A stretch of 24,601 nucleotides of DNA. It comes from a virus. Below the pieces are notes generated by a model. It searched no databases, had not been told where the DNA came from, and was given only the letters and a program-made list of their open reading frames with translations. Shown piece after piece: positions 2,785 through 6,390 of the stretch. Every line of letters begins with the position of its first letter. Position 1 is the stretch's first letter. The stretch covers positions 1-24,601 of IMG/VR virus record IMGVR_UViG_3300003886_000042; one strand, 5' to 3'. A program made the translations under genes and the position numbers.

Positions 2785-3192
2785 ATGATGAATTTAAAAA
2801 CTAATGCTCGTCCCAGCCACATGATGAATTTTAAAGACTTGTGCAACAATTCAAAAGTCAAATATTTTGATACTAATCAAACGTTATATCTCTTATGTGC
2901 TAATTTTGCTTACGATCTAAATCAATATTATGAAGTCCAAGCGGGGATTGCAAACGGGATGCCTATGGCTCAATCAAAATACTTTGAACTTTTAGACTTG
3001 GTGCAAACGCGAGGGTGGAATTCGTTCGAAGTAAAACTATCCCACATTCCACCATTTTTGAAATCTATACATGAACTTACAAATGTAAGCGATTTTGAAA
3101 TCTATACGATGTGTGCTTATATAATTAATGGAATAGAGGGATTGGAATACGTAAAAGGATCAAAAAGTTACATTGAAGAGTATGGAGCATGA
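2785..3192 (+). CDS. Unknown protein, 135 aa
   Basis: I do not recognise this protein. It is 135 residues long and soluble by appearance, with aromatic-rich stretches (YLLCANFAYDLNQYYEV) and no clear catalytic motif or membrane segment. AAAGGAATAATACA precedes the first ATG and supports this start. The sequence ATGATGAATTT occurs again 36 nt downstream (residues 13-16, MMNF), which suggests a small N-terminal duplication or an alternative start. It follows the helicase gene after a hairpin cluster and is probably co-transcribed with it, so an early or replication-linked role is possible but not shown. Confidence 0.7.
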   Translation: MMNLKTNARPSHMMNFKDLCNNSKVKYFDTNQTLYLLCANFAYDLNQYYEVQAGIANGMPMAQSKYFELLDLVQTRGWNSFEVKLSHIPPFLKSIHELTNVSDFEIYTMCAYIINGIEGLEYVKGSKSYIEEYGA

Positions 3193-3325: not shown

Positions 3326-3334
3326 ATTTAACAG

Positions 3335-3450
3335 ATATTGACACTTATGTGTCAATATTTAAAGGATAAACTCAATAATGAGTTTATTTAACAGATATTG
3401 ACACTTATGTGTCAATATTTAACAATATATTGGTGCATGAGCACCAATAT
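3335..3450. repeat. Four hairpins: A, B, A, A
   Basis: Type A GACAC arms at 3335-3358 and 3395-3418 (both loop TTAT), type B at 3366-3387 (arm ATAAACTCA, loop ATAA), and type A GGTGC arms at 3427-3450 (loop ATGA, the reverse complement of TCAT). Joining spacers are TTTAAAGGA or TTTAACAGA-like. The A-spacer-B-spacer-A order at 3335-3418 recurs almost exactly at 3923-4006, pointing to duplication of the block. Confidence 0.8.
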
Positions 3451-3484
3451 TTAGAAGTATTAAATGAAGTAAGGGGTGCAGCAA

Positions 3485-3793
3485 ATGAAAATTATTAAGA
3501 CTGAAGCAAAAAATGAACCAAGAGACACATTAAGAAGTAAAACATGGGATGATTCATGGGATAAAACATTCGAAGAAATATGCGAAGACATATGGGAAGA
3601 TGCAAGAGACGTAGTAAGAAGTGAAGTATGGCGGGAAGAAGTTCGGGACATATGGGATAAAGCGTGGGATAAAGTATGGGATGATTCATGGGATGAAGCG
3701 TGGGATAATGAACCATTCGATGATTCATGGCATCAAGTATGGACTGAAGCGTGGGGTGAAGCGTGGGGTGAAGTAAGGAAGCAAATATCTTGA
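3485..3793 (+). CDS. Tryptophan-tetrad repeat protein
   Basis: This 102-residue protein has 13 tryptophans, most in W-D-x-x or W-x-E-x units spaced four residues apart (W-D-K-A-W-D-K-V-W-D-D-S-W at about 57-69). It is very acidic, with a basic N-terminus (MKIIK) shared with three mini-ORFs downstream (4075, 4112, 4267). A four-residue spacing would put tryptophans along one face of a helix with acidic residues on the others. I chose ATG 3485 over GTG 3476 because AAGGGG (3471-3476) lies 8 nt upstream and MKIIK is the shared start. The DNA is a degenerate 12-bp repeat, so slippage by one unit keeps the frame. No signal peptide or known domain is seen, and function is unknown. The group is separated from the helicase genes by hairpins and its own promoter. 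Confidence 0.7.
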   Translation: MKIIKTEAKNEPRDTLRSKTWDDSWDKTFEEICEDIWEDARDVVRSEVWREEVRDIWDKAWDKVWDDSWDEAWDNEPFDDSWHQVWTEAWGEAWGEVRKQIS

Positions 3794-4074
3794 TTTTATT
3801 TCATAAAGTAAATGATGAGTTTAATGCAATGTTTATTAAACGATTCTAAGCGATAATTAGGACTTACCTATGCCATAGTATTACTTTGTGGTTAAATGAG
3901 CTTAGAACAGATTAGAATACAGATATTAACGCATGAGCGTCAATATTTAAAGGATAAACTCAATAATGAGTTTATTTAACAGATATTGACACTTATGTGT
4001 CAATATTTAACAGATATTAATGCTCATGCACTAATATTTAGAAGTAGAGCATGGAATGAAGTATGGAATGAAGA
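3794..4074 (+). other. Non-coding gap with hairpins and a decayed repeat
   Basis: After an unremarkable stretch, four hairpins lie at 3923-4037. From 4046 an open stretch reads R-A-W-N-E-V-W-N-E-E and then stops, without a start codon. It looks like the tail of a broken copy of the tryptophan-repeat genes. Confidence 0.5.
3923..4037. repeat. Four hairpins: A, B, A, A (second copy of the block)
   Basis: Type A at 3923-3946 (left arm ATATTAACGC, loop ATGA, right arm GCGTCAATAT) has one A-C mismatch. Type B lies at 3954-3975, and type A GACAC at 3983-4006. Type A at 4014-4037 (left arm ATATTAATGC, right arm GCACTAATAT) also has a single A-C mismatch. Both mismatches are consistent with one recent G-to-A change in an otherwise paired arm. 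Order and spacing copy the block at 3335-3450. Confidence 0.75.
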
Positions 4075-4125
4075 ATGAGAATTATTAAGAAGCAAGTATG
4101 GAATGAAGTAAATGAAAATTATTAA
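4075..4125 (+). CDS. Mini-ORF of the MKIIK repeat family (16 aa)
   Basis: It reads MRIIKKQVWNEVNENY and stops. Its start matches the MKIIK opening of the larger family members, and it overlaps the next member's ATG at 4112 by 14 nt in another frame. No clear ribosome binding site is present. It may be a decayed copy, or a short upstream peptide coupling translation to the next ORF. Confidence 0.3.
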   Translation: MRIIKKQVWNEVNENY

Positions 4126-4270
4126 GGATGAAGTAAGAAATGAAGTATGGACTGAAGTAAGGCATGAAGTATGGGATAAAGTAAGAAGTGAAGCATGGGC
4201 TGAAGTAAGAAATGAAGTATGGAGTGAAGTATGGACTGAAGTAAGACTTCAAGTATGGACTGAAGAATGA
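4112..4270 (+). CDS. Mini-ORF of the MKIIK repeat family (52 aa)
   Basis: The product is 52 residues, MKIIK followed by about eleven tetrapeptides of the form E-V-W-x or E-V-R-x, with six tryptophans. The DNA is a 12-bp repeat of GAAGTA followed by TGG, AGA or AGG and a variable codon. The repeat register alternates tryptophan and arginine, unlike the aspartate-rich 3485 product, so the two could form complementary surfaces. That pairing is speculation. Its stop overlaps the next start in an ATGA junction (4267-4270), an arrangement used for translational coupling. No strong Shine-Dalgarno site is seen; GAAGTAA lies upstream. The shared start, preserved frame and coupled stop favour a real gene. 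Confidence 0.5.
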   Translation: MKIIKDEVRNEVWTEVRHEVWDKVRSEAWAEVRNEVWSEVWTEVRLQVWTEE

Positions 4271-4368
4271 AAATTATTAAGAAGCACGTATTAAATGAAG
4301 TAAGAAATGAAGTATGGCATCAAGTATTAGATGAAGTAAATGTACATGTAAACATACTGGGTATTTGA
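4267..4368 (+). CDS. Mini-ORF of the MKIIK repeat family (33 aa)
   Basis: The product is 33 residues, beginning MKIIKKHVLNEVRNEVWHQV and ending in a unique tail, NVHVNILGI. It starts inside the previous stop (ATGA) and has two or three recognisable tetrapeptide repeats with one tryptophan. The first codons share a stretch (GTATTAAATGAAGTAAG) with the DNA just upstream of the 3485 gene, evidence that these units were copied from one another. It could be a coupled peptide or the end of a degenerating array. Confidence 0.4.
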   Translation: MKIIKKHVLNEVRNEVWHQVLDEVNVHVNILGI

Positions 4369-4680: not shown

Positions 4681-6390
4681 TTAATGTCGCATCTTCGATT
4701 TTAAATCAGTAATTTCTCTACTCATTTCCTGAATTGCGGAAACCATCATTGGTATTAATTTAGAAGCATCCATTGATTGAGGATCAATTTCACCATCTTC
4801 GTCAAGTAAATCCTTCTGACCTTGAACTGCCATCGGTAAAATTGACACAACTTCATGTGCTAAAAATCCATCCATAACAGCTTTTTCTTCATCATTAATA
4901 AAATTAAAACGTTTTGGTTTTAACAAATTCACGTTTGATAATCCATCCGTTAAATCTGAAACGTTTTCTTTTAAGCGATAATCAGATGTTGAATTAAAAG
5001 TAGTTGTACCAGACGCCACCGAAATATTTCCCACAATACCACCAATATATAAAAACTGTGCCGTGACCCCCGCCGATGTTAATCGATTGAGATTAAGCGT
5101 ATACCCAGCCCTAGTCATATTTACCCGGCCATCTTCAAAAATTGTTACGCCAGCAACGCCTGAACTTGGATTAGTTTTCCCGATTGAAAGCCGTCCGTCA
5201 GAGTCGATTCTCATCGATTCAGTCCACGTCAAATCTGCGCCAGCCGATCCCGAATTCGCTGCATACCACACATGCAAACCAGGCGATACCTGATATTGCG
5301 CCGCAGCATTAGTTGAAATATACTTCCAAGTTGAGCCATTGAAGTATGCATTATTTTGAATATTTAGCCCACCTGGGCCTGTGCTCGACATCAGAGTACA
5401 ATTCCCCCCCAACTGAATCGCTGGCCTTCCACTCCCCCAATCGTCAATTGTTGCCCGCCCGACAGATAATATCGGAGATGAATTAGAGGAACTTAATCCC
5501 ATTCTTGATATTTCAGTCCAAGAAATTGAATTCGTGGCTGATCCCGATGGAGCAGAAAAAAATGAATGGGCGCCATCCACTGATCGATATAACGTGGCCT
5601 CGTCGGTACTAGAATATTTCCATCCATCAGTTGAAAGGTATGCATTATTCATTTGATAAAATTGGTTGCCGGCGCCAGGGGCAGTATTAGACATCAAAGC
5701 CGACTCATTACCGATTTGTAGGACGCTATATATTCCCTGGAATGGTGCAATTGTTGATTTGCCGACACTTAAAACGTTCGCACCACTTGCTGAGAGTCCC
5801 ATTCTTGATATTTCAGTCCACGAAATTGTACTCGCCGCTGATCCCGAAACGGTAGATAAATGAACGTGATTCCCACCAGATTGATAAGAATATGAAGCTT
5901 CATCTTCTGAAATATATTTCCACGCGCCGTCGTAATGAGCATTCTGCATTGAAAGCAAACCTGAACCTGTACCTACAGCTAACTCTGATGAGAGAGCACT
6001 ATTTCCTCCGACTTCAAACACATTCAAAGCTGAATCCCATACTGAAAACGTTGGGTTAAGTCCAGCTATGGTTTGATTTATTACGCCGGCTGTGCCTGCC
6101 TGTGTGTTGGTTTTAACACCATCACGTTGTAACATTGCAACACTGCCGTTGTCAAGTGTGTGGTCTGTGGTTTCGTTTACGGAGGCGAGACCTGTTATCG
6201 CCAAATAATTACTTACTGTTACTATATTATAAATTCCCCCACCTGTTGGCTCAGAGTTTGTCGCAGACCAATTCGATAGATACGCGATTGTTTCGACAAC
6301 TAAGCCGAGTTGTAGATCCATTTCTTTCATATCCGCAACGGATGCGATTTTTGGAAAGCCGGAATCCGATCTTGTTGTTCCTATTGTCAT
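4681..6390 (-). CDS. Tail fibre/receptor-binding protein with S74 intramolecular chaperone
   Basis: This 569-residue protein should form the trimeric receptor-binding fibre. Residues 1-110 look like a virion-anchoring head. Three repeats of about 95 residues follow (117-208, 209-308, 309-405), each with a WKY-S/T motif, a GSA and most with SWTEISRMGLS. Residues 406-466 form a short shaft. From S469 the SDYRLKEN motif opens a 101-residue S74 chaperone domain. Serine 469 and lysine 474 have the five-residue spacing of the known catalytic dyad, so self-cleavage after assembly is expected. The C-terminus ends in a helical tail with MVSAIQEMSREI. AAAGGAACACC precedes the ATG. It is the last gene of the leftward operon, where P22 has its tailspike. 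Confidence 0.88.
   Translation of the reverse strand: MTIGTTRSDSGFPKIASVADMKEMDLQLGLVVETIAYLSNWSATNSEPTGGGIYNIVTVSNYLAITGLASVNETTDHTLDNGSVAMLQRDGVKTNTQAGTAGVINQTIAGLNPTFSVWDSALNVFEVGGNSALSSELAVGTGSGLLSMQNAHYDGAWKYISEDEASYSYQSGGNHVHLSTVSGSAASTISWTEISRMGLSASGANVLSVGKSTIAPFQGIYSVLQIGNESALMSNTAPGAGNQFYQMNNAYLSTDGWKYSSTDEATLYRSVDGAHSFFSAPSGSATNSISWTEISRMGLSSSNSSPILSVGRATIDDWGSGRPAIQLGGNCTLMSSTGPGGLNIQNNAYFNGSTWKYISTNAAAQYQVSPGLHVWYAANSGSAGADLTWTESMRIDSDGRLSIGKTNPSSGVAGVTIFEDGRVNMTRAGYTLNLNRLTSAGVTAQFLYIGGIVGNISVASGTTTFNSTSDYRLKENVSDLTDGLSNVNLLKPKRFNFINDEEKAVMDGFLAHEVVSILPMAVQGQKDLLDEDGEIDPQSMDASKLIPMMVSAIQEMSREITDLKSKMRH

Follow-up and report, generated by a model that had tools for sequence, protein, structure and literature searches.

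The overlapping tetrapeptide-repeat ORFs at positions 3485 to 4368 of this phage contig are well supported as real genes of a widespread, apparently undescribed phage repeat family. The window, by which we mean the whole stretch of DNA that was analysed (24,601 nucleotides), carries a diverged member of this family with E at the second position of the unit and with clear decay. We give a probability of about one half to the reading, drawn from sequence comparison, that the ORFs encode co-translated, recombination-shuffled helical adaptor proteins that would act with a DUF6745-type partner.

Organization and coding character of the window array

The window is IMG/VR contig IMGVR_UViG_3300003886_000042 (24.6 kb), which was binned as contig C13 in a gammaproteobacterial MAG of 3.5 Mb. 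It is assigned to a P22-like podophage because it carries portal (PF16510), coat (PF11651), large terminase and D5-type primase genes, and the phage genome is probably incomplete. The + strand carries the genes to the left of about 4.4 kb, and the - strand carries the structural genes; a 135-aa ORF (2785-3192) and the tail fibre gene (4681-6390) flank the repeat ORFs. Near the contig start, an 11-bp tandem repeat, TATCTGTCCAT, is present in 6.4 copies (260-329). The features of the array are the following.

3335-3450, + strand: hairpin array of cassette A, four perfect hairpins (3335-3358, 3366-3387, 3395-3418, 3427-3450) with TTTAA spacers
3454-3498, + strand: 5'-truncated repeat remnant EVLNEVRGAANENY-stop, adjoining the hairpin, with its stop 14 nt past the next start (-14 junction); recognized from sequence, repeat family D3
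3471-3476, + strand: Shine-Dalgarno-like AAGGGG, 8 nt 5' of the P0001 ATG at 3485
3485-3793, + strand: P0001, 102-aa tetrad-repeat protein, 13 W, charge -15.4, predicted helices at 17-72 and 79-101
3923-4037, + strand: hairpin array of cassette B (3923-3946, 3954-3975, 3983-4006, 4014-4037)
4040-4078, + strand: start-less repeat copy RSRAWNEVWNEE-stop (R-S-R-A-W-N-E-V-W-N-E-E-stop), with a 4-nt ATGA overlap with the next ORF
4075-4125, + strand: 16-residue mini-ORF MRIIKKQVWNEVNENY-stop, overlapping the next ORF (-14 junction)
4112-4270, + strand: P0002, 52-aa tetrad-repeat protein MKIIKDEVRNEVWTEVRHEVW..., 11 units, with an ATGA overlap with the next ORF (-4 junction)
4267-4368, + strand: P0003, 33-aa protein MKIIKKHVLNEVRNEVW..., five repeat units and then a unique tail

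These features form two successive cassettes with a spacing of 588 bp, each composed of a hairpin array, a start-less repeat copy and then intact ORFs, which are P0001 in cassette A and the 16-residue ORF, P0002 and P0003 in cassette B. The duplicated 94-nt hairpin cores (3331-3424 and 3919-4012) are 94% identical. The sequence-only reading had described a 102-residue ORF with 13 tryptophans and three overlapping mini-ORFs that start M-[KR]-I-I-K, and all four are present at 3485-3793, 4075-4125, 4112-4270 and 4267-4368. It had also proposed that they are paralogous coding repeats built on a 12-bp unit, and this holds: TRF detects a 12-bp period at 3652-3708, 3745-3773 and 4051-4338, and the tryptophan frame is kept open. 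The decayed, start-less copy that it had noticed is real (4040-4078); the second remnant (3454-3498) and the cassette duplication had been missed. The junctions measure -14, -4, -14 and -4 nt, so that each repeat ORF overlaps the preceding copy, always in a new frame.

Several properties indicate that the ORFs are coding. P0001 contains 13 W, 16 D and 14 E in 102 aa, and its W content is 12.7%; 17 other ORFs of the contig contain 0.84%, a 15-fold difference (binomial P about 5e-12). The tryptophan frame is open, the other forward frames contain many stops, and the frame switches at each junction. P0002 and P0003 together have 16 units, in which the first two bases of the x1 codon depart from the consensus in 13 of 32 cases, compared with 2 of 48 for the third positions of x1, E and V (P = 6e-5); this codon-phased deviation argues for a translated, changing protein, as non-coding repeats would not give such a pattern. 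A 3-nt insertion in P0001 (EVWREEVRD) preserves the frame and makes one 5-residue step. Runs of at least five units of the form x-[QEK]-[VI]-[WRG...] are found in P0001 (with this one 5-residue step), P0002 (11 units) and P0003 (5 units). For the window array as a whole, pN/pS is close to 1. The net charges are -15.4 for P0001, -5.4 for P0002, -0.2 for P0003 and +0.5 for the 16-residue ORF; the three main ORFs are thus acidic or neutral, and the acidic and basic partner surfaces that had been suggested were rejected on this ground.

The description of the region as hairpin-dense was borne out, with 26 perfect hairpins of 9 bp or more in the window compared with 0-3 in shuffles. They span positions 336-23597, mostly in intergenic gaps, and have in common the spacers TTTAACAG or TTTAAAGG; several stems show compensating changes (GACAC/GTGTC, GGTGC/GCACC, AGTGC/GCACT, GACGC/GCGTC). 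A DNA search found none of them on the other contigs of the MAG, and none occurs among the hairpins of the relative L304 described below. The region had also been called promoter-bearing, a claim that was not sustained, as the 7 promoter sites found are not above the 13.3 expected by chance.

A search with the coat protein retrieved one relative, contig L304 (IMGVR_UViG_3300028400_000030), whose coat is 78% identical and in which terminase, portal and coat lie in the same gene order as in the window phage; with the primase as query, no relatives were retrieved. The repeat array has no match across the whole 23.9 kb of L304, the only close relative contig, which may itself be a fragment. With this reservation on L304, the array looks accessory in the window phage, in agreement with the accessory location first proposed.

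The repeat family and its association with DUF6745

Relatives were sought with degenerate-codon DNA patterns scanned over IMG/VR; many early matches came from unrelated repeats read in another frame and were set aside. The patterns partly determine the core, and the W, of two or three units at each locus, which is a minor bias. The search of viral metagenomes that the sequence-only reading had proposed was productive: 38 IMG/VR loci on about 33 contigs hold at least two short repeat ORFs in tandem, with up to 16 per locus. The unit of the family is x-[QEK]-V-[WRG], most commonly D/N-Q-V-W/R, and E and K at position 2 are also present in L048, L057 and L067. Many array proteins begin with MKSVK-, MNSVK- or MKAVN- (general form M-K-x-V-K), near the MKIIK- of the window, and of 181 array proteins, 40 (from 16 loci) have the N-terminus M[KN]x[VI][KRN]x[QEKH][VI]. 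The commonest junction distance is -4 (35 of 118), followed by +2 and -14 (11 each), -17 and -8; the nested window junctions (-14 and -4) are two of the commonest modes of the family. In L089, the array DNA (1-752) is open in a second frame too, with an SGIK repeat, and ends in HGKY-stop/MENIK junctions like the NENY-stop/MKIIK of the window.

A profile built only from array proteins of other phages scores P0001, P0002 and P0003 at 34, 51 and 22 bits, all above the maxima of 7, 9 and 9 bits obtained with 500 residue shuffles each. A profile of the family also gives up to 73 bits to unrelated tetrapeptide repeats of other Gammaproteobacteria, so that membership rests on the combination of the unit, the N-terminus, the array form and the junctions.

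Standard searches fail with these ORFs, whose repeats are either masked or without a counterpart in curated collections. In PHROGs, Pfam, NCBIfam and PADLOC the window ORFs gave only low-complexity or sub-threshold matches, sequence searches of solved structures gave only repeat-type or insignificant ones, tblastn in phage records misses such repeats (low-complexity masking being the probable cause), and the pattern scan of the genome contigs gave only short spurious runs. The uncharacterized PHROGs phrog_5189 and phrog_33514 are matched by 8 and 5 of 53 aligned family members, and by neither P0001 nor P0002 of the window at E 0.001. In the open-access literature searched we found no mention of DUF6745 or of the repeat motif. 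The initial impression that the ORFs belong to no known family stands only in part: no named family matched, but repeats of this type are widespread among uncultivated phages and are also found within DUF6745 proteins.

This fused form, with the repeat inside a DUF6745 (PF20530) protein, was found in 43 other phage loci, and is also seen in Mycobacterium phage prophiGD102-1 gp38 (QSM05137.1) and in UOF77368.1 of Siphoviridae cta39025. These two proteins resemble the window ORFs in having units of four residues in tandem, the third being a constant hydrophobic residue and the fourth W, R or G (DQLWGQLRGQLG; SSLWSSLGSSLE). They differ in that the repeat is a segment of a protein of more than 400 aa and has L or V, and Q or S, whereas the window repeat is free-standing, of the E type and devoid of the DUF6745 domain; no window ORF matches Pfam DUF6745. 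Using profiles built from neighbours, we found DUF6745 in 15 of 38 array loci; among 109 other viral loci, which are pattern hits and not a random sample, 12 have it (P = 4e-4). The counts are not fully independent, because some loci come from the same or near-identical viruses. In the 15 array loci DUF6745 is always on the array strand, never has internal repeats, and is always accompanied by a phrog_27831 protein of about 116 aa. Among the 43 fused loci, 31 have phrog_27831 and only three have a separate short repeat ORF. This complementary pattern of split and fused forms suggests a joint function of DUF6745 and the repeat proteins. Both DUF6745 and phrog_27831 are absent from the 24.6-kb contig and from its MAG; as the phage genome is probably incomplete, a DUF6745 partner is either on the missing part or absent.

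DUF6745 and the phrog_27831 protein of about 116 aa form a recurrent phage gene pair (L205, L238, L048, L276 and others), and phrog_27831 proteins have conserved GHxH and THE motifs. In Microcystis phage LMM01 (NC_008562, 154027-155558), gp174 and gp175 are adjoining DUF6745 and phrog_27831-like proteins devoid of repeats. Some of the longest repeat regions found, with 59 to 85 units, are in the DUF6745 proteins of L209, L248 and L275.

Variation, structure and possible function of the repeats

When 38 array and 27 fused loci are taken together, the codon positions with the greatest mean entropy are the first two of x1 and the first of x4. Several low-divergence fused proteins have an identical core hexamer in all units and vary at x1 and x4: the core is CAGGTT in 27 of 27 units of L219, and the 28 units of L211 likewise share one core hexamer, with for example GAT or GCT as codon 1 and TGG, CGG or GGG as codon 4. 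Synonymous variants are rare in these proteins; in older arrays pS reaches pN. Since homogenizing recombination alone would also leave synonymous variants, we infer from these sequences that diversifying or balancing selection may act on x1 and x4. A diversity-generating retroelement was considered because x1 codons resemble a mutated AAT; the restricted x1 and x4 letters of the fused proteins do not fit random adenine mutagenesis.

The helices that the sequence-only reading had anticipated are predicted by AlphaFold2 in P0001 (residues 17-72 and 79-101; mean pLDDT 75, pTM 0.37). In a fused DUF6745 protein the repeat is modelled as a low-confidence helix (pLDDT below 50) between two well-predicted domains, and these have no match in the PDB. 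Fold searches that included BFVD gave no structural match and no known DNA mimic. In such models the V/W stripe would wind slowly round the tetrad helix, and could form a surface suited to interchangeable contacts.

The window repeats can be compared with two known repeat types. TAL effector repeats are near-identical 34-residue units in which two residues vary and which read DNA bases; the window units also have two variable residues but are 4 residues long, and the likeness is one of analogy only. Pentapeptide-repeat DNA mimics of the MfpA type are acidic, with five-residue units that form a beta-helix. The window repeats resemble them in their acidity and very short unit, but this unit has four residues and is predicted to be alpha-helical, and the window ORFs do not match the Pfam pentapeptide repeat.

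In the reading that we prefer, small co-translated genes are built from tetrads x1-[QEK]-V-x4, with x4 mostly W, R or G, and each unit would lengthen the helix by roughly one turn. The arrays would grow or shrink by slippage or recombination in 12-bp steps, which leave the frame intact; the tetrad helices would provide interchangeable binding or adaptor segments, whose x1 and x4 residues may set specificity. Their partner would be a DUF6745-type core, and the setting probably conflict between phage and host or between phages. An adaptor or recognition role with DUF6745 is plausible from sequence. Against the adaptor reading count the lack of a partner in the window and the MAG, the low complexity of the repeats, the pN/pS near 1 and the low confidence of the structure models. 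A more specific version, which we regard as tentative, is modular recognition by a DUF6745 core, phrog_27831 and a tetrad helix, where x1 and x4 of each unit would form a combinatorial code; one branch would carry the helix within the DUF6745 protein, and another would keep a battery of coupled mini-genes that shuffle in 12-bp steps. If true, this would be a fast-changing helix repertoire obtained without a retroelement.

Alternative explanations and significance

The decayed copies and the 588-bp duplication, the pN/pS of about 1 in the window array and the lack of a match in the closest relative contig would all be expected of a coding minisatellite with little function, where 12-bp repeats expand by slippage or recombination, the products are tolerated junk and decay is the normal end. 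We consider this unlikely, as every full copy keeps an open frame and the frame switches exactly at nested junctions, as x1 and x4 vary with almost no synonymous change in many phages, and as the link with DUF6745 and phrog_27831 is consistent. It is rather improbable that P0001 is an acidic helical decoy that mimics DNA or binds a host nuclease or nucleoid factor, with no DUF6745 partner taking part in this phage; the charge of P0001, its long predicted helices and the absence of DUF6745 from contig and MAG agree with such a role, but P0002 is much less acidic and P0003 neutral, neutral Q replaces E in the Q-type relatives, and BFVD contains no structural match to a known DNA mimic.

The window repeats could also be unrelated to the Q-type arrays, a V/W tetrad helix being able to arise repeatedly from 12-bp repeats. 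That other tetrapeptide repeats match the family profile, that the window has E and not Q at position 2, and that the exact N-terminal DNA motif of its ORFs was not found in IMG/VR lend this convergence some credit; we nevertheless judge it improbable, given that the N-terminal motif, two junction types, same-strand tandem arrays and the variation at x1 and x4 are all in common, and that E and K at position 2 recur in three other loci. Finally, the hairpin-dense setting raises the idea that a DNA or RNA element matters (a recombination site, a structured RNA, a packaging or regulatory array) and that the ORFs are by-products. This is very improbable: the Rfam search found no RNA family, the variation is codon-phased and non-synonymous, and in other phages the peptide repeat exists as a segment of larger proteins.

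The array points to a widespread, apparently unnamed family of phage genes that standard annotation overlooks, as its ORFs are short, overlap one another and are masked for low complexity. A constant core with two fast-changing residues, fused to or beside a conserved partner, makes a testable case of recombination-driven diversification, and offers a starting point for understanding what DUF6745 and phrog_27831 do.
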